This document shows positions 1 through 14,697 of a stretch of 64,000 nucleotides of DNA, piece by piece. Numbering within the stretch: position 1 is the first letter of the stretch; the number at the start of each line of letters is the position of its first letter. This DNA comes from Oceanicola sp. 22II-s10i. Its GTDB lineage: Bacteria; Pseudomonadota; Alphaproteobacteria; Rhodobacterales; Rhodobacteraceae. The DNA is taken from positions 1,524,501 through 1,588,500 of the forward strand of contig NZ_AQQU01000001.1 of assembly GCF_002210105.1 (NCBI RefSeq), written 5' to 3'. A program made the position numbers and the translations under genes. Below the pieces are notes generated by a model. The model saw only the letters and a list, made by a program, of their open reading frames with translations, had not been told where the DNA came from and searched no databases.

Positions 1-328
1 TCAGGGCGCGGATGCGGAACGGATGGTCCCGCGTCGCGGCGGTGTCGAGCAAGTGCGCGGCCTGACCGGCCATGCCCTCGGCCCGGTCGATGGCGCCGTG
101 GCGGTAGAAGAGCTCGGCCAGCCGCAGGGCGGGATAGGCCAGCACGTCCGGCGGTGTCCCGGCGGGCAGGGCGCGGCCGATCTCGACGATGGTGCGGCGG
201 GCGTCTTCGGGCTGTGCCGCCAACGCGGCATCCACGTCGCGCATGACCTCGGGCAGGGTCTGCGACACGGCGGCACCGGGCGGGGCGAGCGTAAGGATCG
301 CCGCCAGTATGCCGCCGCGCAGGATCAT
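1..328 (-). CDS. Secreted TPR-like repeat protein, N-terminal part (runs off left edge)
   Basis: The reading frame starts at an ATG that overlaps the stop of the upstream gene by four bases (ATGA) and stays open to the window edge for 109 codons. It begins with a hydrophobic Sec-type signal peptide (about residues 1-22, ending near AAVSQ). The following helical sequence, with 'AYPALRLAELFYRHG' and then 'DHPFRIRAL', resembles the repeat unit of the neighbouring 1092-residue protein ('HYPNLAFARYHYM' and 'NHPYRIEA'), so the two are probably sibling proteins. The missing C-terminus could carry a CHAT or other effector domain; that is a guess. It is the last visible gene of the minus-strand protease operon. 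Confidence 0.75.
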   Translation of the reverse strand, partial: MILRGGILAAILTLAPPGAAVSQTLPEVMRDVDAALAAQPEDARRTIVEIGRALPAGTPPDVLAYPALRLAELFYRHGAIDRAEGMAGQAAHLLDTAATRDHPFRIRAL

Positions 329-3300
329 TCCGGCGGTTCGGGCGGCAGGGTCTGGGCGTAGTCCCAGCCGATGATCGCCTCCCACGCGGCGCGGTTGCGG
401 ACCTCGGTCGCGCTGACGTCCTCGCCGTCGCCGTCGCGGATGGTGTCGCGGCGCCAGTCTTCCTTGATATCGTTGGACCGGGTGATGTCGCGCCATGCCG
501 CCGCGTTGTCCTTGGCCCAGTAGACCGCGATGGCCCGCGTCATCACCAGCGACGACCGGTCGGGCCGCCATTCCAGACCGTCGTCCGGCACCTTGCTTTC
601 GGCGGCGTCGAGCTGGGCCAGCACCTCGTCGATGGGGGCATAGTTGGCCAGCATGTCGGCATAGGACTGGTGCATGTAGATCTGGTCGCGGGCAGGCAGG
701 CGCTTCATGAACGCCTCATTCTCGATGAAGGGGCGCAGCACTTCGCCCCCGCGCTTGGCGTCGTCGTGACGCTGCCGCGAGGCGTAGGCGTAGGTCATGA
801 TGACCCCGGCGGCCAGATCGCCGCGCGCGGTCATCGGGTCGATCATGTCGAATGCCTCGCGCGCGAGGGTCGCCGCGATTTCGACCTGCCCGGTTCCCAT
901 CAACAGGCTGGACTGCCGGGTGATGAGGAAGGCCAGCGTGTCCTTGCGGTGATAGGGGTTCGCCCGCCAGCTGTCCGTCGCACGCTGCATCCATTGCAGG
1001 GCATCGCCCCACATGTTGCGGTTCCAGAAGGCATTGGCGACGTTGAACTGGGTCGCGGCGACAAGGGCATGGTCGCGCGGCACCTCGTCGAGGATCGAGG
1101 TGGCGATGCCGCTCAGCTCCGAAATCGCGAGGTTCGAGGTGAAATAGGCGGGCGAGGAGAACGACCGCGTCAGCAGCATCGTGTCCTGCACCAGCGAGAG
1201 CCGGTTGCCTGGATCGAGGTCCAGCCAGCCCAGCATCTTCTCCATCCATTCGTCGCCCTCGGCGGGGCCGAAGTAGGAATAGATCATCTCGCAGGTCAGG
1301 GCGTAGGCCCATTTCTCCAGCACTGTCGGAGGGTCGGTGCGGGGGTCCGGCTGCACCTCCATCCAGCGGCGCAGGTCGGCGCGGACGCCGGCCTCGTTCC
1401 CGGACTGGTATTTCGACAGGGCCCGCAGCGTCAGGTAGAGGCTGAGCTGCGGCCGCGGCAGGGTGGCCTCGCGCGCCTGCAGCCGGGCGATCGCGTCGCC
1501 CGCCTTGTCCGCCAGATGGACGGTGCCCCAGACCTTGGCCACGAGGTCGATCAGGTCGAAGATCGCGGCATTGGCCGGGATCGACGACCCGAGCGTCGTG
1601 CGCGCCTTGCGCCGCGCCTCGTCCAGTGCGGTCTGGCTTTCGGAATAGGCGCCGACCATCGCCTTGTAGAGCGCGAGATTGACGAGGTATTCCGGCGACT
1701 GGTCCTCGTCCCGCTGGGCGTAGGCGTCCAGCAGCCGCTCCAGCCCGGCATAGTTCCCTTCCAGGAACATGCGGATCGTGTCCTCGCCCCCGCTCTTGAG
1801 TTCGTAGGACGCCTGGTCGATCACGCCCAGCTCGGCGGCCAGCGGATAGCCCTGCATCCCCGGATCGGCAGGGTCGATCAGACCGGCGTAGTATTTCACC
1901 TTGTTGTCCGTCACCCGCCGGTTGCGGCGCAGTTCCGAATAGGCGCGGCGGAAGTAGTCCTGCGCGTCCAGTTCGTTTTTCTGCCACTGGTAGGTGAAGG
2001 CGATCTGCCCCATCAGGTCCGCGATCGACCAGTCATCGGCCCTGCCCGCGTCCTTCAACAGGGCGAGGTCCTCGATCATCAGCGCCCGTGCCTCGTTGAT
2101 CCCGTCGGTCCGGGCCACCGCGTTCCCGAGGCGCAGCGCGGTCACGGCGTAGTCAGTCGATAGGTTGTTGTTCTCGGTCAGGAAGGCGCGCCGTTCCTCG
2201 AAGAAGACGCGTGCCTCGGCGTAATGGCCCGCACGGTAGAGCAACTGCCCGTGGTTGCCGCGGAAGTAGGAGCGGTAGATCGGTTCGATCCCGTCCAGCA
2301 CGTCGGCCAGTTCGAGGATCTGGCTGGACTGTTCGATCAGCTGCTCGGGCGACTCGTCCTCGCGCAGGGCGGCGTTCAGCGACAGGTAGAGCAGCAGCAG
2401 CGCCTGCGAGTTGGTGACGAGGTTCTCGCCGGTGAAGCGCGCCATGAACGTCTCGCGCAGTTCGGAGGCGTCGGTGGCGTTGTTGTCGGTGGCGGCGCGG
2501 GCGAGGAAGTAATGAGCCAGTTCGTTCAGGTCGCCCATCTCGGGGTCGTCGGCGCTGTCGGCCATGGCGCCGCGCAGCAGGATCTCGGCCTCGCCGGGGC
2601 GGTCCTTTTCGAACAGGGCCACGCCCTGAAAGATCGTCGCCTCGATCCGGTAGGGGTGGTTCACGCCTTCGTCCCGGTCCAGCGCGGATGCGACGGAGGA
2701 TGCGAACCGCTGAAGCTCGTCCCAGTTCTCTCGCATGTAGTGATAGCGGGCGAAGGCGAGGTTCGGGTAGTGATCGACCAGCAGCGGGAAGTCCTGCTTG
2801 AACGTCGTGTCATTGGCCTTTTCCAGCACGCGATAGGCCGCGTCGAACTGGCCGTCGTCAGCCAGATCCAGACCGGCGTCGGCCATGTCCATGACCTCGT
2901 CCTCGGTCAGGGTGCGGTCGCGCCAGCCGCCCGGCAGGGTCATGTCCATCGCCAGATCGGCGTAGCGGACCATCTGGGTGTTGCCGGGGGTGACGAACCC
3001 GTAGCCCCGGTAGTAGTCGAGGAAGGCCGTGCGCAGCTCGGCCGCGTCCGGTGCGCCCGCGCTGGTGGCGGCAAGGGCGAGGAAGTAGCGCGCCAGTTCC
3101 TCGGCGGCCTCGTCTTCCTCCAGCGCCTCGCTTTCGGTCACGGCCTGACGCAGGACCGGCAGGGCCTCTTCGACCTCGCCCGACATGTAGAGCGCGGCGG
3201 CCCGCAGGATCGTCGCCTGCACCCGGTAGGGCAGGTCGCCCGCGCCGTAGGCGTTCATCTGGGTTTCGAATTCGGTGGCGTGTTCGATCGTCCCGGCCCA

Positions 3301-3603
3301 GTCACCATCCCAGTAGGCCATCAGGGCCTGCGCCATGCGCGGGAATGTGCGGACGAGGGGGGGGAGGTCGGGGTCTTCGGCGAGTGCGAGCGCTTCGTCC
3401 AGCGGGATCCGGGCCTGACGCAGGCGGTCCTCGATGATGAAGCCCATGGCCTCGGCGGTGTTGTTGATGATCTCGTCGCTCTTGTCCTGCGCCATGACCT
3501 GCGGTGCGGTCAGCAGGAGGGCGGCAGTCAGAAGCAGGGCCCCGAGGGTGCGGCGGGGCCCGAAGGCCCCGCCGCGGTGTCCGGTATGGACGTCAGTTGG
3601 CAT
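325..3603 (-). CDS. Large secreted TPR-like helical repeat protein
   Basis: This 1092-residue protein has a signal peptide (hydrophobic residues about 20-34, likely cleavage near 39 after VMA). The rest is alpha-helical, Ala/Leu/Glu/Asp rich and reads as degenerate tetratricopeptide repeats. An internal duplication is visible: residues about 68-219 resemble about 258-409, for example 'PYRVQATILRAAALY' against 'PYRIEATIFQGVALF' and 'ELARYFLALAAT' against 'ELAHYFLARAAT'. No catalytic motif is seen, so a scaffold, sensor or substrate-binding role in the periplasm is inferred. The start overlaps the end of the trypsin-like gene by 11 bp and the stop overlaps the next gene by 4 bp, indicating translational coupling. 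No strong Shine-Dalgarno is visible, so an internal GTG start at codon 5 is possible. Confidence 0.85.
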   Translation of the reverse strand: MPTDVHTGHRGGAFGPRRTLGALLLTAALLLTAPQVMAQDKSDEIINNTAEAMGFIIEDRLRQARIPLDEALALAEDPDLPPLVRTFPRMAQALMAYWDGDWAGTIEHATEFETQMNAYGAGDLPYRVQATILRAAALYMSGEVEEALPVLRQAVTESEALEEDEAAEELARYFLALAATSAGAPDAAELRTAFLDYYRGYGFVTPGNTQMVRYADLAMDMTLPGGWRDRTLTEDEVMDMADAGLDLADDGQFDAAYRVLEKANDTTFKQDFPLLVDHYPNLAFARYHYMRENWDELQRFASSVASALDRDEGVNHPYRIEATIFQGVALFEKDRPGEAEILLRGAMADSADDPEMGDLNELAHYFLARAATDNNATDASELRETFMARFTGENLVTNSQALLLLYLSLNAALREDESPEQLIEQSSQILELADVLDGIEPIYRSYFRGNHGQLLYRAGHYAEARVFFEERRAFLTENNNLSTDYAVTALRLGNAVARTDGINEARALMIEDLALLKDAGRADDWSIADLMGQIAFTYQWQKNELDAQDYFRRAYSELRRNRRVTDNKVKYYAGLIDPADPGMQGYPLAAELGVIDQASYELKSGGEDTIRMFLEGNYAGLERLLDAYAQRDEDQSPEYLVNLALYKAMVGAYSESQTALDEARRKARTTLGSSIPANAAIFDLIDLVAKVWGTVHLADKAGDAIARLQAREATLPRPQLSLYLTLRALSKYQSGNEAGVRADLRRWMEVQPDPRTDPPTVLEKWAYALTCEMIYSYFGPAEGDEWMEKMLGWLDLDPGNRLSLVQDTMLLTRSFSSPAYFTSNLAISELSGIATSILDEVPRDHALVAATQFNVANAFWNRNMWGDALQWMQRATDSWRANPYHRKDTLAFLITRQSSLLMGTGQVEIAATLAREAFDMIDPMTARGDLAAGVIMTYAYASRQRHDDAKRGGEVLRPFIENEAFMKRLPARDQIYMHQSYADMLANYAPIDEVLAQLDAAESKVPDDGLEWRPDRSSLVMTRAIAVYWAKDNAAAWRDITRSNDIKEDWRRDTIRDGDGEDVSATEVRNRAAWEAIIGWDYAQTLPPEPPE

Positions 3604-4657
3604 TGATCGTCTGGCTCATCCAGTCGGTGAAGTTCGAGACCTTGGTATAGGCCGAGAACAGCGCCGTCTCGACGCAGGTCATGGTTTCCTTGTTGGCGAA
3701 ACCCCACGACACGACACCGGCCTGCACGTAGGAGCCGTCGTTCAGCGGCACCACCAGCGGACCGCCGGAGTCACCCTGGCACGAGGTCTTGCCGCCCTCG
3801 TAGGTGCCCGAGCACAGCATGTTGTCCGACAGCGGGATCCGGGCCTTGGACACCAGCGCGTTCCACGCCTGCTGGGCGTTGTCGCCCTTCACGTCGAGGA
3901 TCTGCAGCGCCTGGATAAAGGGCTGGGCTGCGGCCTGCGCGCGGGCTTCGAGGATCGCGCCGTTGCACTGGTCGCGGCCGAGGATCTGGATCTCTGCCTG
4001 GTACATGTCGGTGGGGTGCGAGCCGCCGTTGATCAGGCCCCAGCCGGTGACGATGGTCGGCACGCCGGTGACGTCGATCTGTTCGCCGAAGTTCTTGTCC
4101 GGCACCTTGATCGTCTGGTAGGGCGCGTTCGGTTTCCGGGCCAGCTTGATCAGCGCGATGTCGCTGTCGAACCCGTCGGGGTTGTAGCTGGTGTTGCGGA
4201 AGATGCCCGCCACCGGAACGACGTCACCCATGCCCGGCGCCAGCTTGTTGGTGCCGACGATGACCTGGATCTGCTGGGGCTGGAGGTCGAAATAGCCGTC
4301 CTTGTCCTGCATGTAGACGCAGTGCGCGGCGGTCAGCACCCACTGGTCGAGGATCATGGAGCCGCCGCAGAAATGCGATTCCGGTCCGACCGGGCGCCCT
4401 GCGATCAGCAGGCCGACCTGCCAGGGCCATGCACCCTGCGCCGCGATCTCGCCGCCGATGACGCGGCCGCCGGCCGCCTCGGCCGCCTTGCGCTGCTCCT
4501 CGGCCTGTTCTTCCTTCTTATTCGTTTCTGCAAATGCAAAGGGCGACGACACGGTCGGATCAGCTTCCGGCGCGGCGTCGAGGGACTGGGCGAACCCCGG
4601 CGTGGCGAGCGCGAAGGCTGCCACGGCAGGGAGGGCCAGACGGGTAATGAGTTTCAT
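3593..4657 (-). CDS. Secreted trypsin-like (S1) serine protease
   Basis: 354 residues with a Sec signal peptide (1-24, ending GFAQ), a charged propeptide (about 25-64), and a chymotrypsin-fold domain starting at the activation site R65-VIGG. The triad is complete: H112 in 'LTAAHC', D166 in 'SDIALIKL' and S297 in 'GDSGGPL'. The residue six before the serine, which sets S1 specificity, is T291 rather than the Asp of trypsin, so Arg/Lys specificity is doubtful. The stretch between C231 and C282 is about 51 residues, far longer than the dozen or so normal between these cysteines, giving a large insertion beside the active site. It lies 36 bp downstream of a caspase gene and overlaps the repeat-protein gene, so it is likely part of one secreted proteolytic operon. 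Confidence 0.9.
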   Translation of the reverse strand: MKLITRLALPAVAAFALATPGFAQSLDAAPEADPTVSSPFAFAETNKKEEQAEEQRKAAEAAGGRVIGGEIAAQGAWPWQVGLLIAGRPVGPESHFCGGSMILDQWVLTAAHCVYMQDKDGYFDLQPQQIQVIVGTNKLAPGMGDVVPVAGIFRNTSYNPDGFDSDIALIKLARKPNAPYQTIKVPDKNFGEQIDVTGVPTIVTGWGLINGGSHPTDMYQAEIQILGRDQCNGAILEARAQAAAQPFIQALQILDVKGDNAQQAWNALVSKARIPLSDNMLCSGTYEGGKTSCQGDSGGPLVVPLNDGSYVQAGVVSWGFANKETMTCVETALFSAYTKVSNFTDWMSQTINAN

Positions 4658-4693
4658 GTCTTGGGTCTCTCTTTGGTTACGTAATTGCAGTGG

Positions 4694-6733
4694 TCAGGGT
4701 GTGCCGGCGGGCGCTAGCGTGATGCGGAAGCGCGTGACCTCGAGCGAGGGCAGAGCGCCACCGAAACTGAAGTTGCGGGACTTGGTTTCCGGGTCGGCCG
4801 CGGCCATGAGCCACTGACCGAGTGCGGGGGTATCGGGCGTGTCCATCGCCCGCATCTGGACCGGATCGGCCAGCGCCGTCAGCACGGTGCGCGGCGCGCC
4901 CTGCACGGCGGGGGCGGCGAGGACGACGAGTTCTTCCTGACCCGGCGTGTCGCCGGGGTTCTGGATCAGCATCCCGATCTCCTCGGTCTCGCCGAAGTTC
5001 AGGCGGTTCGACAGGGCCCCGTCGGGATAGATCGGCGTGATCCGGAAATCGCGGTCGACATACAGCACGGTGATGTCCCGCGCGGTCTTGGAGTTGTTCT
5101 TGACGGTCAGCCAGAGCTGGTCGCAGGCGGAGGCGATCACCTCGCCCTGCGCCGGGCTGTCCGCGCCGGGCTCGCCGCAGGCACCGTCGGTGCCGGGCAC
5201 ATCGGTCTTGGACAGCGATACAGTCAGACCGACGCCGGGCAGGGCAAAGCTTGTGGTCGTCCCGCCCTCGGCCGCCTTCAACGCGGCGCGCAGGCGGTGC
5301 GCGCGGATCGCGCGTTCCAGGAACTCGGCCATCTGCGCGCGGTCCGCTCCGGCGGCCAGCCGGGGGCTGCTGCCCGCGCCGAGGCCATCCAGAACGCCGT
5401 CGCGCCCGGCCAGTGCAAGCGTGCCCTCGGTGAACACGGGCACGAAGTCCGGCGCGCCCTGCGCGGCGTCGGTGATGCCTTCCATCGTGTCGGTCAGGTC
5501 GCGCAGCATGTCGGCCAGATCGCCGATCTCGCCCTGCTCCGCCATCACCGGCGCGCCCAGCTTCAGCGGTTGCGGCAGGGCGGGACGGTGGAGTTTCGCA
5601 TAGCCCTCGGCGGGCAGGCCCTCGGCGGACAGCGTTGCGCTGTCGGCTTTCGCCTCGGTCACTTCGGCGATCACTGGCTCGCCCGTGGCGGCGGCGTCGG
5701 CATAGACGGCGACCTGCGCACCCGTGTCGATGCCGCTCAGCAATCCGGCGGACATCCTGCGGCCCGTAACCGGCCAGACCGGATCGGCCTCGGCGGCGGT
5801 GCCGAACAGAGGCGCGTCCAGCAGCGGACCCTCGGCATCGGGGGTCTGCGCGGCGGGGCCGTCCTTGGCCATGCCGTCCACGGCGGCCATCAGCGCCTGC
5901 GACCAGCTTGCCCCGTCGGCCGAGGTCAGCACGGGCATCAGCGCGCTGGTGAAATCGCCGTACCAGTTGGTGTCGTCCGACGCGTCGCCGACCGGGTATT
6001 CGAAACTGCGCTGGTCGGATTGCGAGGAATACAGGAACACGAACTGCCCCGTGGGCGGCGGCGTGACCTGTCCGGGATGGCTGTCGCCCGCCTTGACGTC
6101 GGGCACGCCTAAAAGAGCCGGGTCGATGTAGCGCGCGGCCGAAACCTTTTCGTCCGTGATGGCGCGGAAACCGGTCGCGGAATGGCAGGCGTCGATGATC
6201 GCCACCAGTTCGGCCCCGGTGTCGAGGATCGCCTGCATCTTCACGCCCAGCTCATCGTCGATCAGCGCGTTCTCGACGCCCCCGATCGCGCCCTTCCAGT
6301 TCTTGGAATCCGAGGGCAGCAGGATCTCGTCATAGCCGCCCGCCTCGTCGCCCGAGGCGTCGGGCATCTGCGAACCGTGACCGGAGAAATAGAACACCAC
6401 CGTGTCGCCCTGACCCACGGTCGCCGCCAGCGCGTCGAGTGCGTCGAGGATCGCCTGGCGGCGGGGCATGCCCGCGATGGTCAGGCCGTCATCGACCGTC
6501 GCGTCGGGGGCGGCGAGGATGGTGATATGCGCCGGGTCGGCACCTCGGGCGCGCAGCATCCGGGAGACCAGCTTGATATCGTTGGCCGGGCCGCGCAGAT
6601 CGGCGTTGAGATATTCGTAATCGGAAACACCGATAACCAGCCCGTGGACCGCGGCCCATGCGGCCGGTGCGGTCAGGCTGATCGTGGCTGCGACGGCGAT
6701 CCGCCGCGCCGCGGTGTTCAGGAAATGTGACAT
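4694..6733 (-). CDS. Secreted caspase-like protease (C14/p20) with C-terminal beta-rich domain
   Basis: The start was set at the ATG at 6733, which follows GGGAG at five bases and begins a clean signal peptide (residues 1-27, ending AAWA); a longer in-frame start upstream lacks these. The 679-residue protein opens with the p20 fold ('HGLVIGVSDYEYL'), the catalytic histidine H119 in 'YFSGHGSQ' and the catalytic cysteine C183 in 'IIDACHSATGF'. A downstream segment (about 540-600) with 'LYVDRDFRITPIYPDG' resembles the DUF4384-like domain found with other bacterial caspases and matches the second caspase at 12559-14697. Family members are Cys peptidases usually cleaving after Arg or Lys; here the location would be periplasmic or extracellular. 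It follows the patatin gene by 87 bp in the same operon. Confidence 0.9.
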   Translation of the reverse strand: MSHFLNTAARRIAVAATISLTAPAAWAAVHGLVIGVSDYEYLNADLRGPANDIKLVSRMLRARGADPAHITILAAPDATVDDGLTIAGMPRRQAILDALDALAATVGQGDTVVFYFSGHGSQMPDASGDEAGGYDEILLPSDSKNWKGAIGGVENALIDDELGVKMQAILDTGAELVAIIDACHSATGFRAITDEKVSAARYIDPALLGVPDVKAGDSHPGQVTPPPTGQFVFLYSSQSDQRSFEYPVGDASDDTNWYGDFTSALMPVLTSADGASWSQALMAAVDGMAKDGPAAQTPDAEGPLLDAPLFGTAAEADPVWPVTGRRMSAGLLSGIDTGAQVAVYADAAATGEPVIAEVTEAKADSATLSAEGLPAEGYAKLHRPALPQPLKLGAPVMAEQGEIGDLADMLRDLTDTMEGITDAAQGAPDFVPVFTEGTLALAGRDGVLDGLGAGSSPRLAAGADRAQMAEFLERAIRAHRLRAALKAAEGGTTTSFALPGVGLTVSLSKTDVPGTDGACGEPGADSPAQGEVIASACDQLWLTVKNNSKTARDITVLYVDRDFRITPIYPDGALSNRLNFGETEEIGMLIQNPGDTPGQEELVVLAAPAVQGAPRTVLTALADPVQMRAMDTPDTPALGQWLMAAADPETKSRNFSFGGALPSLEVTRFRITLAPAGTP

Positions 6734-6820
6734 TCGCGCTCCCACGCTCCTCCGATGCCCAAGGATTGCAAGGGTTTGGCCCCGCAATCAAGGGAAACGG
6801 GGACATGACCGCAAATGTCA

Positions 6821-8281
6821 TCAGTTGCTGACGGGTGTGATCCGTCTGGCCCCGGAAATATCCGGGCCAGCCCCCCCGTTCAGGGGGGTGCCGCCATACT
6901 GGCGGGTGCTGCGGAGGAAGCCGTTCAGCTCAGGGTTGTCTCGCGTGGCGTTCCTGCCGGCCTCGATGGCCAGGTCCACCTGATCGGTCGGCAGGGCGAG
7001 TCGGGTGGGGATCGCGTCGACCTGCTTCTGCATCGCGGGGGGCAGGGCGCGGATGGAAACTTCACCCGCGAAGAACTTCAGATCGCGGCAGTCCCATCCG
7101 GCGGCAGAGCCACGCAGGCGCCGGACCTCGGAGGCCGGAAGCGCGCAGCGATAGTCGACGAGGTCCGCCTGCCACTTGTCCAGTTGCAGCCGCATCGCAT
7201 CGAACCCGGTGCGCGAGGCCGAGGCCATGGCCGAGGACGCGATCGCCATCGCCAGTTGCGCGCCGCCGGGGCCCTTCAGCCGCTCGGTCCACGTGTAGTC
7301 CTTCTGCACCCCGGCATTGGCGACGAGGAAGAGGAACCGGTTCATCCGCACCGCCTGCTGTGGCGTGAGCGGGGCGAAGGGCAATTGCGCCCGCGCCCGC
7401 TCCACCGCCAGCCCGGTGGTCCCGAAATTGTCGGTGATCCCGCCATCCAGCAGCTTGACGTAGCGCACCGGCTCGCCCCGCGCGTAGCTTTCCAGCGCGG
7501 CGGCGTGCGCCTTCATCGCCGCCGTCGCCTCGGGGTTGTAGCGGGCGGCGGTCAGCCAGTCGGGCTCGGTGTAGTTGCACTGGCCCGCGCGGGTTTCCAG
7601 CGTGATCGGGGCGAACACCATCGGGTAGGCGGCCGAGGCGGCGACGGCGTCGGCCAGCCGGTATTTCGACAGGTCCGAACAGAGCGCGTCGAAGGTTTCC
7701 GGCGCGAAGAGGAACGTCGTCTGGTTGGCCACGTCCGAGGCGTTGATCCACGTCTTGATCCGCGACCGGCGGGATAGGTCGCCGAACGTGGCCCCCTGAA
7801 ACAGCGTCTCGTCCAGGAACCGCCCGAAGGTGTTGCGCCCGTTGGCCCCGCCCGAGATGCCGCGCACCAGCGTGACCGGGTTCAGGACCGAGGTCGCCAT
7901 GTAGGCCTCGCCATTGCGGACGAGGTAGCGTTCGCGGAACCCCGGCAGGCCGCCCGCGCCGTTCAGCCCGAACCAGGCGGCGGTGACCGAGCCGCCCGAG
8001 ACGCCGGTGACGAGGCGGACGTCCGACAGCATCCCGTCGGGGTCACTGGCCGAGGCGGTCGCCTCGCGCATCGCCTCCAGCATGCCGTAGGCGAAGGCCG
8101 AGGCGCGGGTGCCGCCGCCGGAAAAGGCGAGGCCGACCCACAGCTCGCCGTCGCCTGCCGGATCGCCGGCCACAAGCGGTGCGTTTGCATCGGCCGACAG
8201 GGGCGCGTTCTGCGGTGCGTTGACCACCGCACAGGCGGCAAGGGCGCAGGACAAGAGCGCGCCCGAAACAAATCTGAACAT
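6821..8281 (-). CDS. Patatin-like phospholipase, probable lipoprotein
   Basis: 486 residues with a lipoprotein signal: hydrophobic N-terminus and lipobox LAAC with the lipidated cysteine at C17, implying membrane attachment outside the cytoplasm. All patatin features are present: glycine-rich oxyanion loop 'SGGGTR' (54-59), nucleophile elbow 'GVSGG' with S95, and the dyad aspartate D279 in 'LLDGGITDN'. The protein is expected to hydrolyse acyl chains from phospholipids or other lipids. It is longer than a minimal patatin domain, with an insertion between the Ser and Asp blocks. It lies 14 bp after the histidine kinase gene and 87 bp before a caspase gene, so it is placed in the protease operon. 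The substrate cannot be told from sequence. Confidence 0.9.
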   Translation of the reverse strand: MFRFVSGALLSCALAACAVVNAPQNAPLSADANAPLVAGDPAGDGELWVGLAFSGGGTRASAFAYGMLEAMREATASASDPDGMLSDVRLVTGVSGGSVTAAWFGLNGAGGLPGFRERYLVRNGEAYMATSVLNPVTLVRGISGGANGRNTFGRFLDETLFQGATFGDLSRRSRIKTWINASDVANQTTFLFAPETFDALCSDLSKYRLADAVAASAAYPMVFAPITLETRAGQCNYTEPDWLTAARYNPEATAAMKAHAAALESYARGEPVRYVKLLDGGITDNFGTTGLAVERARAQLPFAPLTPQQAVRMNRFLFLVANAGVQKDYTWTERLKGPGGAQLAMAIASSAMASASRTGFDAMRLQLDKWQADLVDYRCALPASEVRRLRGSAAGWDCRDLKFFAGEVSIRALPPAMQKQVDAIPTRLALPTDQVDLAIEAGRNATRDNPELNGFLRSTRQYGGTPLNGGAGPDISGARRITPVSN

Positions 8282-8295
8282 CCCCTAATCCCCGG

Positions 8296-9663
8296 TCAGG
8301 ACCGGGGAAGCTTAGGCCAGGCGATGTCGATTCTGAAACCTTTATCGGAACTTGGCAGAGTCAGCTTGGCCCCGTGCCGGGTGGCGATGGCCTGCACCAG
8401 CGCAAGGCCGAGGCCATGGCCCGACGTCTCGCGATCCCGCGCGCTGCGGGTGAAGCGGTCGAACATCGTGGCGCGGATGTCCTCGGGCATGCCGGGGCCG
8501 GTATCGGCGAGGCTCAGGACGTGTCGGTCGCCGTCGACGGTGAGCGTGAGCGAGACAGCATCGCCGGGGGCGCAATACTTGATCGCGTTGTCGAGCAGGT
8601 TCGACACCAGTTGCGCGATAAGGTTGCGTTCGCCGAGGATCATCGCGTCCGGCGCGATGGCGGCACTGGCGGCAAGGCCCTTGTCCTCGGCCAGCGGCTC
8701 GTAGAGCTCGAACACCTCCGCCGCGATTTCCGACAGGTTCAGCGGCACGAGGCCGGGGCGCTGGCCCGACGCCGCCTCGGCGCCCGAGATGTCGAGCAGG
8801 CTGTCGAAGATGCGGATCGTGCCCGCCATGTCGGCGCGGATCGCCGCGACGGCCTCGTCCTGCCCCTCGATCCGGTCCAGCCGCTGGCGGATGCGGTTCA
8901 GGGGCGTCCTCAGCTCGTGCGCGATGTTGTCCGACAGCCGGTGCGTGGCACGGTTCAGCGCCTCGATCCGGTCGAGCATCGCGTTGAAATGCGTCTCCAG
9001 CGCGCCGAATTCGTCGCTGCCGCGCGGGTCGGGCAGGCGGGCGGACAGGTCGCCCTCGGCCACCCGGTCGGCCAGCGTGTTGACGCGGTGGATGCGGCCC
9101 ACCACGGCGCGGGCGACCAGCCAGCCCGCGACCAGCGCCAGCGCCGACAGGCCCGCCGCGACCCACAGGATCGTGCCGCGCAGGTCCGCGAGGGTCTGCG
9201 TCACCGGCGCCTGCGAGCGCGCGGCCAGCAGGGGGAATCCGCCGGGCAGGTCCCGCGCAACGCCGCGATACTGGCCGCCGGGCAGATTGATGTCCTGCGC
9301 GGGCAGGGGGGCAAACATCTCGCCCGCCTTCGTCAGCCCCTCGGGCCATGCGGGCAGGTTGCCCGCCAGCGTCGTGCCGTTGCGGTCCTGCAGCAGGTAG
9401 AGGGCGGCGTCGGGCGGCGTGACGGCGGCACGGGCCTCGATCGCCTCGCGCAGGCCGGGGATGCGGCGCTGTTCGTAGAACTGGGCAAAGCCGGTCAGGT
9501 CCGCCGCCAGCACCTCGGCCTGCCGCGCCTCAAGCGCCTGCGCGGTGATGCGGTACTGCAGCGCCATGGCGGACAGCGACAGGGTGATGATCCCCGCCGC
9601 CACGATCAGCATCACGCGCAGGCTGGCCGACCGGGCCGGGGATCGGCGCGGGGGCAGGGTCAC
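8296..9663 (-). CDS. Sensor histidine kinase (HAMP-HisKA-HATPase)
   Basis: 455 residues starting at a GTG that overlaps the response regulator stop by four bases (GTGA). Two transmembrane helices (about 17-37 and 163-187) bracket a periplasmic sensor region of about 125 residues, followed by HAMP, a dimerisation domain with the phospho-acceptor H249 in 'AHELRTPL', and the ATPase with N box 'NLLDNAIKY', G1 'DTGPGMP' and G2 'GHGLGLAL'. It should phosphorylate the OmpR-type regulator encoded just upstream. Its position inside a run of secreted protease genes suggests that it senses an envelope signal and controls that locus; this is inference from context. Confidence 0.93.
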   Translation of the reverse strand: MTLPPRRSPARSASLRVMLIVAAGIITLSLSAMALQYRITAQALEARQAEVLAADLTGFAQFYEQRRIPGLREAIEARAAVTPPDAALYLLQDRNGTTLAGNLPAWPEGLTKAGEMFAPLPAQDINLPGGQYRGVARDLPGGFPLLAARSQAPVTQTLADLRGTILWVAAGLSALALVAGWLVARAVVGRIHRVNTLADRVAEGDLSARLPDPRGSDEFGALETHFNAMLDRIEALNRATHRLSDNIAHELRTPLNRIRQRLDRIEGQDEAVAAIRADMAGTIRIFDSLLDISGAEAASGQRPGLVPLNLSEIAAEVFELYEPLAEDKGLAASAAIAPDAMILGERNLIAQLVSNLLDNAIKYCAPGDAVSLTLTVDGDRHVLSLADTGPGMPEDIRATMFDRFTRSARDRETSGHGLGLALVQAIATRHGAKLTLPSSDKGFRIDIAWPKLPRS

Positions 9664-10367
9664 TCGGCGTGGTCTTTCTGCGGGTCGAAGACATAGCCGA
9701 CGCCCCGGTCGGTGTGGATCACCGGATGACCCGCCGCCTGTTCCAGCTTGCGCCGCAGGCGGCCGACATGGACGTCGACGACGTTGGTCTGCGGGTCGAA
9801 ATGCAGGTTCCAGACGTTCTCGAGCAGCTGCATCCGCGTCACCGTCTCGCCCGCGTTCCGCGCGAAATAGGTGATCAGCTCGAACTCCTTGGGGCTGACC
9901 GGGATATGCTGGTTGCGGACGTGGACGGTGCGGGCCTTGGTGCGGATCTGCAGCGGGCCGAAGGTGATCAGGTCGTTGTCCAGCACCGCCATGTCGTGCC
10001 GCCGCAGCAGCGCGCGCAGACGTGCGCGCAGTTCCTCGGCGTCGAATGGCTTGGCGAGGTAGTCGTCGGCGCCCTTCTCCAGCCCCTCGATCTTGTTCGA
10101 CGCGCGGCCGAGCGCAGAGACGACCAGCACCAGCGCGGAGGATCCGGCGGCGCGGATCTTGGCGATGGCGTCGATGCCGTCGCCGCCGGGCAGCATCCGG
10201 TCGAAGACGATGACGCGGAATTCGGCGAGGCCGGCGGCCTTGAGCCCGTCCTCGTAGCTGCGCATCACGACGGGGTCGCAGTCGAGGTCGCGCACAGCTG
10301 CGGCGAGGGCGTCGGCGGCGACGGGATCGTCCTCGACGATCAGGATGCGGGTCTGGGGGGTGGTCAT
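9660..10367 (-). CDS. OmpR-family response regulator
   Basis: 235 residues with a receiver domain (acidic pair E12-D13-D14, phosphorylation site D56 in 'VFDRMLPG', S84, K106 in 'LAKPF') and a C-terminal winged-helix DNA-binding domain ending 'VIHTDRGVGYVF', typical of the OmpR/PhoB family. A strong GAGGAGAG ribosome site precedes the ATG by about six bases. It is coupled to the kinase gene by overlap and sits 21 bp after htrA-like 10389-11723. The inverted and direct repeats in the divergent promoter at 11773-11796 are possible targets. Confidence 0.93.
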   Translation of the reverse strand: MTTPQTRILIVEDDPVAADALAAAVRDLDCDPVVMRSYEDGLKAAGLAEFRVIVFDRMLPGGDGIDAIAKIRAAGSSALVLVVSALGRASNKIEGLEKGADDYLAKPFDAEELRARLRALLRRHDMAVLDNDLITFGPLQIRTKARTVHVRNQHIPVSPKEFELITYFARNAGETVTRMQLLENVWNLHFDPQTNVVDVHVGRLRRKLEQAAGHPVIHTDRGVGYVFDPQKDHAE

Positions 10368-10388
10368 CGTGCTCTCCTCGCGCTCAGA

Positions 10389-11723
10389 TCAGAACACCGA
10401 CACGGCGGGGTCAAGGGCATTCGCGCCACCGATGGGCACGTTGGGCAGGACGTTGGTCCAGGGGTCCACGATCACGTGCAGGCTGCGGCCCGCCCGGTCG
10501 ACGCGGATCACCAGCGCGCCGTCGATCTGCTGGGCGGCCAGCGTTTCGGGCGTGGCGGGCGCGCCGTTGACGGCGCGGATCACGTCGCCCTCGGCCAGAC
10601 CGGCGCGGTAGGCGGGGCTGGACTTGGAGATGTCCTTCACGGTCGTGCCGCCGTCGGCGAACCAGACGCCGAGGCTGTCCCATGTGTAGGCCGTGACGCG
10701 TCCGATCATTCCGGCGGCGGGGGCAGACGTGCCCTGTATCGCGGGGGTGTCGGGGGTCAGGTCGAGGAGCAGCTGCATTTCGGCGCCGTTGCGGATGATC
10801 GTCAACTGCGCCTCGTCGCCCGCGATGGTCTCCAGCGCCCATGCGAGGTCCGCTGGCCGGGCGAGGGGATGCGCGTCGAGGGCCGTGAGGACATTGCCCG
10901 CCTCCACGCCCGAGCGCCATGCGAGGCTGCCGTGTTCCACGTCGTCGACAAGGATCGCACGGCCGTTCTTCAGCCCGAGCGCCTGCGCGATGCGCGGCGT
11001 GACGGGGCGGACGGTCAGGCCCAGCCGGACCACGGCGGGCAGGTCCCCGGCAACGAACCGCACGACCGTCGCGGCGGGGGTCGCATACGCGATCCCGGCG
11101 AACAGGCGCGACCCGTCCGCGATGCGGGTGTTGATGCCCACGACGTGGCCCGCAGCGTCGACCAGCGGCCCGCCGGACGAGCCGGGATTGATCGCCGCGT
11201 CGTGCTGGATCAGCGCCACCGGGATCGCCGGGTCGGTCTGGCGGTCCGGGGCCGAGACCATGCCGCCGGTCATCGAGAACTCCGTCTCCAGCGGCGCGCC
11301 GAAGGCAAGGACGGGCGCGCCGAGCGGCGGGCGGTCGGTGGCGGGCGGCAGGCCCGCGCCGAAATCGCCGCCGGGGAGCGCGATCAGGGCGAGGTCGCGC
11401 ACCTTGTCGCGGGCGGTCACGCTGGCCGACACCCGCAGACCGTCGCGGTTGCGCAGGGCGACGCGGATGCGGTCCTTGACCACATGCGCGCTGGTGACGG
11501 CCACCGTCCCGTCGCCCCAGAGCGTCGCCGAGCCGAGGAACGCCGCATCCATGTCGTCGCTTTCCACCACCAGCGTCGCGGCCAGCGCGGTGTCCGCCAC
11601 ATCCGCGCGGCTGCCGGTCACCGAGGCGACCAGAACCACCAGCGCGGACATGAGCGGCACGAACAGCAGGAAGGGCCGGCGGGCGGCGCGGTGCGGCGTG
11701 TAGCGGATCGGTCGGTCGGTCAT
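10389..11723 (-). CDS. Membrane-anchored HtrA/Deg-like serine protease with two PDZ domains
   Basis: 444 residues. An uncleaved-looking hydrophobic segment (about 18-37) after an Arg-rich N-terminus suggests an inner-membrane anchor with the protease in the periplasm. The trypsin-fold domain carries H80 in 'VTSAHVV', D110 in 'VRDLALI' and S183 in 'GSSGGPLV', the HtrA variant of the triad. Two PDZ-like domains follow (about 235-325 and 345-430), the second with 'SSPAYRAGLAEGDVIRAVNG'. HtrA proteases sense or degrade misfolded envelope proteins. It is the first gene of the minus-strand operon and is transcribed away from the secreted protein at 11883, from which it is separated by a 159-bp control region. 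Confidence 0.9.
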   Translation of the reverse strand: MTDRPIRYTPHRAARRPFLLFVPLMSALVVLVASVTGSRADVADTALAATLVVESDDMDAAFLGSATLWGDGTVAVTSAHVVKDRIRVALRNRDGLRVSASVTARDKVRDLALIALPGGDFGAGLPPATDRPPLGAPVLAFGAPLETEFSMTGGMVSAPDRQTDPAIPVALIQHDAAINPGSSGGPLVDAAGHVVGINTRIADGSRLFAGIAYATPAATVVRFVAGDLPAVVRLGLTVRPVTPRIAQALGLKNGRAILVDDVEHGSLAWRSGVEAGNVLTALDAHPLARPADLAWALETIAGDEAQLTIIRNGAEMQLLLDLTPDTPAIQGTSAPAAGMIGRVTAYTWDSLGVWFADGGTTVKDISKSSPAYRAGLAEGDVIRAVNGAPATPETLAAQQIDGALVIRVDRAGRSLHVIVDPWTNVLPNVPIGGANALDPAVSVF

Positions 11724-11882
11724 GGCGTGTCCCTCGAAAGTCTGGCCAATACGTAATGCCTGCCTCTGCCGGGTTCACATGACAAGTTCAGTCATGAAGG
11801 CCCGGGGCCCAGAATCCCTTTGAATCATTGAGAAATGGCGGACATTATCGACCCGACTGACAAGACCGAGGACATTTCGATC
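11724..11882. promoter_or_regulatory. Divergent promoter region of the protease/caspase locus
   Basis: This gap separates the minus-strand protease operon from the plus-strand secreted protein/caspase pair. It holds an inverted repeat CATGAC-N7-GTCATG (11778-11796) overlapped by a direct repeat GTTCA (11773-11777 and 11786-11790, 13-bp period). A plus-strand sigma-70-like promoter can be read as TTGAAT (11820-11825), 17-bp spacer, CATTAT (11843-11848). The repeats are candidates for the operon's own response regulator, but binding is not shown by sequence. Confidence 0.5.
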
Positions 11883-12548
11883 ATGCGCATTTCCGCAGCC
11901 CTCACCGGCTTCTGCCTGGCCTTCCTGCCGCTGACGGCGGGGGCCGAGGCGATTTCCCCCGACATGGCCGGCGCGCCGCTGAGCGTCGTCAAGCGGGCCG
12001 AGATCTCCGCCCGCCTGTTCGACGCGGCGCTTCAGGACCGCGACCCGCTGCTGGCGCTGGCCGCCGCGCGGATGCGCCAGTCGGTGCTGGGGGCCGAGAT
12101 CGAACGCGAGCCGGAACGCGACGGCCCCGCGCCGGAGGGCGAAGGCGAAGGCCCGGTCACGTGGGAGGACATGCTGGATACCGCGCTGGCCTTTGGCGGC
12201 GGCGATCCGTTCATCGAAGGCATCGCCGAGGACATGCTGGCGGTGCAGGCGCGCGGTGTGGTGTCGGGCAAGGTCTATTCGATCAGCCAGATCCGGGCGG
12301 GCGGCGCGGACACCTACAAGCCGCTGGAGTATGAAGGCAACGCCTATGCCGAGGTCTATATCGAGGGCGCCAGCGCCGCCGACCTGAATGTTCGCGTCTT
12401 TGACAGCGCCGGGCGGCTGGTCTGTTCCGACACCGACATATCGGCCATCGCCTATTGCGGCTGGCGTCCCGCCAAGAGCGAGGCGTTCACCGTCGTTGTC
12501 GAGAACAAGGGCGGCGGCGGCACGTCCTACACGCTGATCACCAACTGA
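11883..12548 (+). CDS. Secreted protein of unknown function, possible PPC-like C-terminal domain
   Basis: The start was placed at the ATG that begins a signal peptide (MRISAALTGFCLAFLPLTAG, cleavage near AEA), not at an upstream in-frame ATG at 11835. The 221-residue protein has an acidic, low-complexity stretch (around 75-90, rich in Glu/Gly/Pro) and a C-terminal region (about 150-221) ending in beta-strands: 'LNVRVFDSAGRLVC', a Trp segment, then 'FTVVVENKGGGGTSYTLITN'. That pattern resembles bacterial pre-peptidase C-terminal domains, which often accompany secreted proteases. The caspase gene begins 10 bp downstream, so the two are co-transcribed. No enzymatic motif is seen; accessory or inhibitor roles are equally possible. 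Confidence 0.8.
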   Translation: MRISAALTGFCLAFLPLTAGAEAISPDMAGAPLSVVKRAEISARLFDAALQDRDPLLALAAARMRQSVLGAEIEREPERDGPAPEGEGEGPVTWEDMLDTALAFGGGDPFIEGIAEDMLAVQARGVVSGKVYSISQIRAGGADTYKPLEYEGNAYAEVYIEGASAADLNVRVFDSAGRLVCSDTDISAIAYCGWRPAKSEAFTVVVENKGGGGTSYTLITN

Positions 12549-12558
12549 GGGGACCTCG

Positions 12559-14697
12559 ATGAAAACGCTCCGCCGCATCGGCCTCGTTTCCGTTCTTGCC
12601 CTGACCGCCGCGTGCCCGGCGCTGGCCAAGGAGGCGCATGCGCTGCTGATCGGCGCGTCGCAATACGTCAACCTCGACGAAAGCGCATGGCTGAACGGGC
12701 CGAAGAACGACGTCGACCTGGTCCGCAAGTACCTGCTCGCCAATCCGGTGATGAGCTTTGCGCCCGAGCGGGTTCATGTGCTGGCCGACGGGCTGGAAGG
12801 GGCCGAGGCCCCGACGCTGGCCGCGATCCGGGCGGGCTTTGCCGAACTGGCCGAGACGGTCGAGGCGGGCGATTTCGTCTATCTCCATTTCGCCGGTCAC
12901 GGCACGCAGGCTCCGGCGCTCGACCCGTCGACGGAACTCGACGGGCTGGACGAACTGTTCCTGCCGGTCGACATCGGGCCGTGGAACGATACCGTCGGCA
13001 CGGTCGAGAACGCGCTGATCGACGACGAGATCGGCCAGATGATCGACGCGATCCGGGCCAAGGGCGCGGATGTCTGGGTGGTGTTCGACAGCTGCCATTC
13101 CGGCACCGCCACCCGCGCCGCGCCGTCGGGTGACGACGAGGTGCGGCAGCGTCAGCTGAAGCCCGAGATGCTGAAGATCCCCGACAGCGCGATGGCCGAG
13201 GCCGAGAGCAAATCCCGCGGGATGCCGAAGGACGACCCGCGTGCGCGCCCTGCGCCTGCGGTCGAGGCGGGCGCGGAGGCCCCGGCCGAGGGCAAGGGCC
13301 AACTGGTCGCCTTCTTCGCGGCCCAGACGAACGAGACGACGCCCGAGAAGAACATGCCGCGTGGCCAGCCCGACCGGCGGCCGCAGGGCGTGTTCACCTA
13401 CACGATTTTCGAAACGCTGGCCGAACGACCCGGCATCACCTATCGCCAGTTGGCGCAGGAGGTGCTGCGCAAGTACTCCGTCCTGAACCTCGCCCGCTCG
13501 ACCCCGCTGTTCGAGGGCGATCTGGATCAGGCGGTGTTCGGCGAGGGCGGCGCCGGGCTGATCCTGCAATGGCAGGCCGCGCCCGAGGGCGATGGGCTGA
13601 AGGTGCCCGCCGGTACACTGCACGGGCTGCAGCAGGGCACGGTGATGGGGCTCTTCGCTTCGCCCGCCGATCCGGACGAGGCGATGCTGGCCGAATACCG
13701 CGTGACCGGGGCCACGACGTTCTCCGCCAGCGCGGCGGTCGAAGGGGCGGCACCGTCCGAGGTGCCGTCGGGCGCGGTTCTCAGGAAAATGTCGAACGGC
13801 ATCGACTTTTCGCTGACCGTGGCGCTGCCCGAAGACGGCAGCGCGCCGGCCGAGGCGATGGCGGGCGCGGTGGCCCAGATGATGCGCGAACCGGCGATCG
13901 CGGCGCGGGTGTCCTTCGTCCCCGCCGGAACCGAGGGGGCCGACCTGCGGCTGGCGGTGATCCCCGACAGCCCGCGCCCCGATGCGATCTGGATCCTGCC
14001 CTCGACCGGGCTGGTCGATCCCGAGGAACTAGCCAGAACGCCCTCGGTTTCCACGGACGACAAGGATGCGGACGAACTGGCGGCGGTCATGGCCGACAGC
14101 TTCGCCACCATCGCCAAGGCGCTGAACCTGATGAAGGTCGGCGCGGCGACCGCCTCGGCCAGTCTGCCGGTGGATGCGGAACTGGTGACGGCCCGGTTCG
14201 ACACGGTCAAGGAAGAGGTCGACCAGACCAGCCGACGGGCGGTCGAGGGCGCTGATGTGCCAAAGCTGGTGCCGGATGACGTGGTGGGCCTGCGGCTGAC
14301 CAACAACGGCGAGACGCCGGTCGATTTCAACCTGCTCTACGTGGGGGCGGACTACTCGATCACCTTCATGGGCAACGGCAGGATGCAGCCGGGATCGGCG
14401 CTGGATGACGATTTCGTCCTGATCGCGCCGGAAAGCTTTGGCCGCGACCGGCTGATCGTGATCCTGACCCCGGTCAGCGGACAGTCGGGGACCGAGGATC
14501 TGTCGTTCCTCGAACAGAACCCGCTGGCGCTGACCCGCGCGGCGGGGCCGGGGCCCGAGGGGATCAAGGGGCTGCTGGACGAGGCCGGGTTCGGCCAGAC
14601 GACGCGCGGCGCGGTCAGCCTGTCCAAGCGCAAGAAGGCGGACCCGGTGCCGGTGTTCCTGCAATACGAGATCGACACGGTGCCGGGCGGGACCTGA
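12559..14697 (+). CDS. Secreted caspase-like protease (C14/p20), second paralogue
   Basis: 712 residues with a signal peptide (1-23, PALA); a cysteine at C19 makes a lipoprotein signal possible but weak. The p20 domain contains 'HALLIGASQYVNL', catalytic H114 in 'HFAGHGTQ' and catalytic C179 in 'VFDSCHSGTAT'. The C-terminal segment 'NNGETPVDFNLLYVGADYSITF' matches the corresponding part of the caspase at 4694-6733, so the two share domain order and are paralogues. GAGGGG lies about six bases before the ATG. It is 10 bp after the secreted small protein and diverges from the protease operon, supporting a joint extracytoplasmic function. Substrates and activation are unknown. Confidence 0.9.
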   Translation: MKTLRRIGLVSVLALTAACPALAKEAHALLIGASQYVNLDESAWLNGPKNDVDLVRKYLLANPVMSFAPERVHVLADGLEGAEAPTLAAIRAGFAELAETVEAGDFVYLHFAGHGTQAPALDPSTELDGLDELFLPVDIGPWNDTVGTVENALIDDEIGQMIDAIRAKGADVWVVFDSCHSGTATRAAPSGDDEVRQRQLKPEMLKIPDSAMAEAESKSRGMPKDDPRARPAPAVEAGAEAPAEGKGQLVAFFAAQTNETTPEKNMPRGQPDRRPQGVFTYTIFETLAERPGITYRQLAQEVLRKYSVLNLARSTPLFEGDLDQAVFGEGGAGLILQWQAAPEGDGLKVPAGTLHGLQQGTVMGLFASPADPDEAMLAEYRVTGATTFSASAAVEGAAPSEVPSGAVLRKMSNGIDFSLTVALPEDGSAPAEAMAGAVAQMMREPAIAARVSFVPAGTEGADLRLAVIPDSPRPDAIWILPSTGLVDPEELARTPSVSTDDKDADELAAVMADSFATIAKALNLMKVGAATASASLPVDAELVTARFDTVKEEVDQTSRRAVEGADVPKLVPDDVVGLRLTNNGETPVDFNLLYVGADYSITFMGNGRMQPGSALDDDFVLIAPESFGRDRLIVILTPVSGQSGTEDLSFLEQNPLALTRAAGPGPEGIKGLLDEAGFGQTTRGAVSLSKRKKADPVPVFLQYEIDTVPGGT

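Follow-up and report, generated by a model that had tools for sequence, protein, structure and literature searches.

The window analyzed here is a 64,000-nucleotide stretch of the genome of Oceanicola sp. 22II-s10i (G000:C1:1524501-1588500; coordinates below are those of the window), and at its start lies a locus of ten adjacent genes with predicted exported caspases and a trypsin-family protease. All ten genes are present in the window, as judged from open reading frames (ORFs) and Pfam matches. Eight of them lie on the minus strand in the 5' to 3' order HtrA, response regulator (RR), histidine kinase (HK), patatin, caspase 1, trypsin-like protease (TRYP), TPR1 and TPR2, with successive intergenic gaps of 21, -4, 14, 87, 36, -11 and -4 bp, and they face SML and caspase 2 on the plus strand. 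ORF coordinates and Pfam matches confirm the gene content and arrangement given by a first-pass annotation of this DNA, including its statement that no gap between co-directional genes exceeds 87 bp. An internal promoter is indicated by the conserved box upstream of caspase 1; the eight genes need not form one transcript, and a single eight-gene operon is weakened. Independent transcription, which the annotation had named as a refutation, may be partly true, yet the promoters have a common box.

Relatives of the locus were collected in two ways. A caspase 2 query of genome contigs gave 16 named loci, and an SML query of 292 Rhodobacterales genomes matched 24 genomes, with a close SML orthologue (E ≤ 1e-40) in 18/292, the present genome included. 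The own locus, the first 16 and 17 SML-found regions, minus two repeats (L055 = L011, L056 = L013), make up 32 non-redundant loci. Because of how they were collected, every locus of the first set has caspase 2 and every one of the second has SML. Across these 32 Rhodobacterales loci the arrangement HtrA-RR-HK-patatin-caspase 1-trypsin facing SML-caspase 2 is found again, complete or incomplete, and tblastn finds all eight core genes in 19/32 (L021, with broken frames, among them). The grouping exceeds chance, and conservation of the gene order in Rhodobacterales, which the first-pass annotation had set as a check, is borne out rather than refuted by a scattered neighborhood. Patatin is missing in place from six loci (L008, L015, L017, L018, L064, L070), L022 has no HtrA, RR or HK at the locus, and L054 has no caspase 2. 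Trypsin and caspase 1 are jointly missing in place from L015, L022, L054, L057, L058, L059, L064, L065 and L066. A TetR neighbor is common to L007, L008 and L016 only. In the class as a whole, a caspase 2 relative (E ≤ 1e-20) is found in 4/385 genomes, again counting the present one. Decaying copies were seen in two genomes (L083, L084), one with caspase 1 outlasting trypsin and the other with both broken.

Caspase 1 (4694..6733, minus strand) is a predicted exported, metacaspase-like orthocaspase of 679 aa (Peptidase_C14, E 3e-24), and caspase 2 (12559..14697, plus strand) is a second one of 712 aa (Peptidase_C14, E 3e-14). Among orthologues that passed a length filter, the His, the Cys and two S1 Asp residues are invariant in 27/27 caspase 1 sequences, and the His, the Cys and the S1 Asp pair in 29/29 caspase 2 sequences. 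The acidic S1 residues are the Asp of the ND motif and the Asp two before the Cys, a role that they have in metacaspase structures. The nearest solved chains for both caspases are metacaspases (metacaspase-4 for caspase 2), and the predicted model of caspase 1 (predicted local distance difference test, pLDDT, 75.6) matches metacaspases and MALT1 in fold. By sequence, both caspases are thus of metacaspase type, and from this type, the dyad and the S1 aspartates we infer specificity for Arg/Lys. Their C-termini comprise several hundred residues without a Pfam match over the cut-off; a DUF4384 domain, suspected there, did not appear in the Pfam matches (E ≤ 1) of 23 caspase 1 sequences. In a distant alphaproteobacterium (L085:14153-19239), a caspase 2 relative adjoins a protein of 960 aa, by its sequence apparently a WD40-like member of the caspase family.

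TRYP (3593..4657, minus strand), encoded directly downstream of caspase 1, is a predicted exported zymogen of the S1A (chymotrypsin) family with a length of 354 aa, recognized by Pfam (Trypsin, E 4e-46) and by alignment to PDB chains. Aligned to solved S1A proteases, its His-Asp-Ser triad is retained in 27/27 sequences. The activation site is R65|V66-I-G-G, which takes the form basic|V-(I/V/L)-G-G in the alignments of relatives, with P1 being Arg in 18/27 and Lys in 9/27. Residue 189, aligned to the Asp of Der p 3 and MASP-2, is Thr in 25/27, Val in L018, Gly in L069 and Asp in none of the 27. True trypsins carry Asp189 in the S1 pocket, and TRYP does not; of the label 'trypsin-like protease', the S1A family and the zymogen site stand, while the residue for trypsin specificity is missing. 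A P1 of Arg/Lys combined with the absence of Asp189 implies that an activator cutting after Arg/Lys would be needed and that the zymogen itself should not be this activator.

The two genes are coupled. Caspase 1 and trypsin are both present in 23/32 loci and both absent from the other 9/32. Among the 292 genomes, 17 caspase 1 and 16 trypsin orthologues were found, with both in 16 genomes and neighboring in 16/16. In four genomes of genus g15 the pair has been relocated and is still neighboring in the same order; the same holds in the L015 genome, where it lies about 10 kb away. L022, G207 and G133 are without both genes, and in G243 both are broken.

A shared sequence box precedes several of these genes. 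The HtrA/SML intergenic regions have in common CACATGACAAGTCCnGTCAT, a box of about RTGACAWnnnCnGTCA. In the window it occurs as ATGACAAGTTCAGTCAT in the divergent HtrA/SML region (11779..11795, plus strand) and as ATGACATTTGCGGTCAT before caspase 1 (6805..6821, minus strand), where it lies 71 bp 5' of the ATG and takes in the final base of the stop codon of patatin. The divergent promoter carries the box in 29/31 RR-bearing loci, 20 of these sites having served to train a weight matrix with a core of 16 bases. Outside the training set, the caspase 1 upstream sites score ≥18 in 21/27 and ≥14 in 23/27, they lie 49–96 bp before the start used, and 26/27 point in the direction of the gene. A clean background of 523,812 bases gave 17 matches ≥14, one ≥18 and none ≥20. 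A tile p ≤ 0.05 was reached upstream of caspase 1 in 26/27 cases, compared with 0/31 for HK, 0/31 for RR, 3/26 for patatin and 2/27 for trypsin. When scored in a later test, caspase 1 at its displaced site in the L015 genome had a box just upstream (19.0); the decaying L083 copy has none above 8.3. In L022, whose locus lacks RR, the PAT-SML gap contains no box (6.7), and the genome is without an RR orthologue (best 31% identity, against 54–89% for the RR orthologues of the loci). Position, background and this one absence suggest, by co-occurrence, that RR may act through the box. We rejected the box as a -35/-10 promoter, its conserved halves probably being too close and forming a near-palindromic TGAC-N7-GTCA.

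The box extends beyond the locus. In the own genome the 17-mer pattern occurs at four sites, against none for a reversed-pattern control, namely the divergent promoter, caspase 1, the gap before an exported CHAT gene, and L094; the latter, flanked by an nhaA-like ORF and one for a putative ABC protein, was judged a likely chance match. The CHAT protein (L095:4001-5662; CHAT domain E 2e-55, signal-like N-terminus) is encoded about 200 kb from the locus. Its orthologue L100 (78% identity) keeps the box at a distance of 335 vs 350 bp, and relatives (E ≤ 1e-20) are found in 17/26 locus-carrying genomes; by coordinates they lie beside the locus in L056, L063, L067, L068 and L070 and near the displaced pair in L158. 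A box with a score ≥14 also stands before 12/22 SML paralogues, a count reduced from 13/25 rows by dropping the repeats L074 (the own main copy), L076 (= L086) and L089 (the G133 main copy), with L012 unscored at a contig edge and L083 a remnant of a main copy. Searching 26 genomes with the strict pattern RTGACAAANNCNGTCA gave 56 sites vs 2 for the reversed pattern; six genomes (G207, G196, G226, G147, G678, G672) had no site. Thirty of the 56 were examined. Seven have caspase 1, SML, HtrA or CHAT downstream according to blastp, further partners were recognized by eye (L128 and L130, exported proteins like the helical domain of SML, and L142, an exported TPR protein) or by coordinates (L144 and L152; before a TPR-CHAT gene and the L016 caspase 1 site), and 18/30 have no recognized partner. 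A crude gene finder placed 15/30 strict sites inside ORFs, the known sites L141 and L152 among them. The unit as a whole therefore looks like a multi-promoter regulon that also includes SML paralogues and an exported CHAT protease.

The SML gene (11835..12548, plus strand) encodes a small, predicted exported protein; its longest ORF begins at 11835, and the start that gives a signal peptide is probably 11883. The database entry P0047 is 194 aa long and would lose the signal peptide seen with that start. The own SML has no Pfam match at E ≤ 5, and 30 members of the family gave scattered weak matches only (best, S-layer in two at E 0.0077) and none to the PPC domain. The predicted model (pLDDT 84) consists of a helical domain, a low-confidence stretch at 142–144 and a jelly roll that resembles Tk-SP, collagenase binding domains and the PPC domain (PF04151). 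PPC-type folds head the structure list, with ≤15% identity in the rows compared, and the GOLD domain and other jelly rolls score close behind; in contrast to PPC-type domains, SML is free-standing and has its own helical N-terminal domain. Judged by this model, SML is a protein family without a Pfam name and with a PPC-like fold. The junction of the two domains is conserved: among 121 sequences (the own SML and 120 listed of 188 matches), 117 have Lys at residue 140 and 4 have Arg (Arg140-Gly-Val in the own protein), and the following Gly and a Cys pair are invariant in 121/121. The association with caspases is also seen outside the order. In another alphaproteobacterial family (L086:452-12066), an exported caspase, SML-like genes, RR, HK and a 1185-aa TPR-CHAT protein are clustered, at about 26–31% identity to the parts in the window, which gives reason to think that SML works with exported caspases. 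L128 and L130 encode, after a box at 1501, exported proteins of ~120–140 aa that by eye resemble the helical domain of SML alone; the family may thus have single-domain members. In three genomes (L071:8462-10093, L072:9735-10406, L047), SML paralogues located elsewhere in the genome adjoin what by eye is the same M20-type deacetylase gene.

The remaining genes complete the regulatory and envelope parts of the locus. RR (9660..10367, minus strand) is an OmpR/PhoB-type response regulator (Response_reg and Trans_reg_C) and HK (8296..9663, minus strand) a membrane sensor histidine kinase (HAMP, HisKA, HATPase_c), in which two hydrophobic segments flank a periplasmic domain of about 125 aa; its HisKA match (26.3 bits) is slightly below the cut-off of 26.9. 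With the phospho-accepting His invariant in 30/30 HK and the phospho-Asp in 31/31 RR orthologues, domains and phospho-sites support the dedicated two-component system proposed earlier. HtrA (10389..11723, minus strand) is an HtrA/Deg-type protease with a hydrophobic N-terminal segment (Trypsin_2 and PDZ), matching the Do/DegP subfamily model at E 1.5e-56, under the NCBIfam cut-off. In the window, its triad and PDZ domains are present. Three Oceaniglobus loci (L013, L014, L015) have lost all three catalytic residues and retained RR, HK, SML and caspase 2, suggesting a non-proteolytic PDZ role for HtrA there. The patatin-like phospholipase (6821..8281, minus strand; Patatin, E 6e-14) is a predicted lipoprotein with the lipobox LAAC; the strict lipobox pattern occurs in 18/25 orthologues, and the nucleophile Ser (GxSxG) and catalytic Asp (DGG) are invariant in 26/26. 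Apart from those HtrA sequences, the catalytic residues are intact, as had been claimed, in the window and in every length-filtered orthologue of both caspases, TRYP and patatin.

Export was judged with a crude script (hydropathy, AXA and lipobox patterns; not SignalP) and by reading N-termini by eye. Hydropathy passes were obtained for 26/26 trypsin, 26/26 caspase 1, 24/25 patatin, 28/29 HtrA, 30/31 SML and 28/29 caspase 2 sequences. The cytosolic RR passed in 15/30 as well, and this test is therefore not specific. By eye, the N-termini of the effectors resemble signal peptides, and script and eye together lend support to the predicted export signals. A probe for type II secretion (PF03934) was uninformative, with matches also in 8/14 controls. 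TPR1 (325..3603, minus strand; 1092 aa; TPR_12, E 4e-7) and TPR2 (867 aa; TPR_12, E 9e-9) both have signal-like N-termini. Of TPR2, the window holds the N-terminal part (1..328, minus strand), and the gene extends 2.3 kb beyond the window edge to G000:C1:1522225. These are the least conserved part of the locus, being matched near it in a minority of relatives, with 10-kb flanks that often stop short of the TPR gene position. ARAGORN reports a tRNA-Ala (cgc) at 1436–1510 on the strand opposite to TPR1, probably a false positive within coding sequence. Beyond TPR2 follow convergent ORFs that resemble, by eye and without a family search, an oligopeptide ABC transporter operon.

Our favored reading, to which we give a probability of about 0.6, is an induced extracytoplasmic caspase-to-trypsinogen cascade under two-component control. 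An envelope signal would activate the histidine kinase, and RR, presumably by binding the box, would turn on HtrA-RR-HK-patatin, SML-caspase 2, caspase 1-trypsinogen (with the TPR genes perhaps included) and the distant exported CHAT protease. Outside the cytoplasm, an Arg/Lys-type orthocaspase, most likely the adjacently encoded caspase 1, would cut the zymogen at R65|V66 and so make the new N-terminus that S1A proteases require. Once active, this protease, whose specificity would be non-tryptic, would act with the patatin lipoprotein on envelope proteins and lipids. SML would serve the exported caspases as their dedicated partner; it is probably a substrate too, with the cut at Lys/Arg140-Gly141, where the helical domain meets the jelly roll. 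The periplasmic proteolytic cascade suggested by the first-pass annotation thus stays plausible and gains a specific step, the cutting of a trypsin-family zymogen by an Arg/Lys-type caspase. The gene order, the signal-like N-termini, the intact active sites, the box positions, the zymogen site, the missing Asp189 and the caspase 1/trypsin co-occurrence are read directly from the DNA; regulation is argued from the three grounds named above, and cleavage from residues and gene coupling. The strongest chain appears to run from sensor and regulator through the shared box to exported caspase 1 and the trypsin-family zymogen. The wider version, a bacterial extracytoplasmic zymogen cascade in which sensor-induced orthocaspases activate the proprotease and cleave SML, with CHAT proteases in one box-defined regulon, we hold more tentatively, at somewhat less than even odds.

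Several observations weigh against this cascade. In the divergent region, L065 has no box despite its RR, and L019 scores only 12.2; absence of RR together with the box was seen in one genome. Before the own caspase 1, the box reaches a core score of only 14.0, a level met 17 times in the background, four g15 caspase 1 copies have a weak box (7.0–13.4) at the same 51 bp, and 12/27 caspase 1 regions reach p ≤ 0.01, with background tiles that still contain true sites. Five of the six genomes without a strict-pattern site have RR at the locus, 10/22 SML paralogues are without a box, and only 7/27 CHAT upstream regions (within 450 bp) have a box ≥18 (9/27 at ≥15), those of TPR-CHAT genes not being taken from the true start. 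As to cleavage, P1 Arg/Lys is usual across S1A zymogens generally and cannot alone identify the activator of TRYP, which could be another cell protease or caspase 2. G203 has caspase 1 without intact trypsin, much of the locus decaying there: caspase 1 is open over its full length, and only fragments of trypsin, SML, caspase 2 and HK give matches. The SML junction varies among paralogues: in a wider set of 30 members, one (L071:9392) has His for Lys/Arg and another (L072) has no junction Gly. Finally, the HtrA triad is lost in 3/29 sequences.

These points bear unequally on the alternatives. A Cpx- or Rse-like regulon for envelope quality control, with HtrA and the exported proteases degrading misfolded envelope proteins without a zymogen cascade, would explain why the two-component system adjoins an HtrA protease and why the box precedes several exported proteases. 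We consider it unlikely, since the HtrA triad is dispensed with in three relatives that retain caspase 2, RR and HK, the set is patchy (18/292 genomes), unlike a housekeeping function, and the trypsin-family member retains a precise zymogen site. More credit, if still doubtful, goes to a zymogen that activates itself or depends on an unrelated protease, with caspases that have separate substrates and genes that share regulation only; Arg/Lys at P1 is the common S1A pattern, and the link between caspase and zymogen is a predicted one. Against it, Thr for Asp189 speaks against self-activation after Arg/Lys, and the neighborhood of caspase 1 and trypsin is kept in all 16 genomes with both, even when they are relocated.

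Two further readings assign the locus another purpose. The putative oligopeptide transporter genes directly beyond TPR2 and the several exported hydrolases would suit a digestive or scavenging exoprotease system that feeds peptide uptake, but the flanking ORFs differ among relatives by length and strand, and a lipoprotein anchor, a zymogen and a dedicated sensor would better fit controlled local action, leaving this the most improbable of the alternatives. If the locus worked like bacterial caspase systems, against phage or in self-killing, the envelope would be both what triggers it and what it attacks; this reading finds support in the PADLOC 'caspase' model, which matches both caspases (E 1e-16 and 1.6e-21). 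We think it improbable as well: the ten proteins contain no nuclease or NTPase sensor domain (the flanks were not screened for defense or mobile genes), the effectors appear exported, and a transcriptional two-component system would be slow for phage defense. A canu-type anti-phage system was rejected, with no nuclease domain found among the ten proteins and the TetR neighbor. Compared with housekeeping or feeding, the patchy distribution, the zymogen and the apparent tight control lead us to favor a response to envelope injury that is inducible and may damage the cell itself.

Each part of the locus has known counterparts. Bacterial orthocaspases and metacaspases (Peptidase_C14; MEROPS C14B) resemble its caspases in the His-Cys dyad, the acidic S1 residues and, for caspase 1, the fold; the locus differs by the N-terminal export signal, the long Pfam-less C-terminal sequence, its own two-component system and the SML partner. 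CpxAR-DegP and other OmpR-family envelope-stress regulons likewise place an OmpR-type two-component system beside an HtrA protease, whereas here a near-palindromic box would govern proteases of the caspase clan, a zymogen of family S1A and a lipoprotein of the patatin type. In the available part of a 2012 survey, many prokaryotic metacaspases have an N-terminal transmembrane helix, possibly a signal peptide, and metacaspase operons with further protease genes occur, the present arrangement not being described in that part (PMC3501461). Trypsin-p20(QC)-DUF4384 fusions, pseudo-orthocaspases reported in a bacterial survey covering Rhodobacterales, also link trypsin-like and caspase-like modules, but within one polypeptide and with a substituted caspase dyad, while the locus has separate genes, complete active sites and a zymogen site (PMC6426788). 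Canu and nuclease-protease antiphage systems have a caspase- or trypsin-family protease that switches on a dormant effector encoded by a neighboring gene; they use a pro-nuclease against phage, in contrast to the locus, whose ten proteins include no nuclease domain and which has predicted exported effectors and two-component regulation (PMC12799240). VMAP and related conflict systems combine a caspase or trypsin with an alpha/beta hydrolase, sharing with the locus a caspase beside a lipase-like hydrolase and the idea of a peptidase cascade; by contrast, no vWA, MoxR or STAND domain occurs among the ten proteins, which are set apart by export and two-component control (PMC7159879). The available text of PMC4933709 holds nothing relevant to the locus. 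Among the matches listed in the open-licence literature there was no description of the locus, which is weak evidence of absence.

The logic of the proposed zymogen cascade would be comparable to that of the animal clotting and complement cascades. To our knowledge, most discussion of caspase homologues in bacteria treats them as cytosolic proteases of cell death or defense, and few have a known substrate. The locus offers a concrete candidate substrate with a defined scissile bond for an apparently exported caspase. If the favored reading is true, it would give an exported bacterial orthocaspase a physiological substrate, and caspase-to-trypsinogen activation would take place outside the cytoplasm. 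SML would likewise be a new caspase-associated family of secreted proteins. The box makes the regulon, and hence the inducing signal, searchable by reporter.

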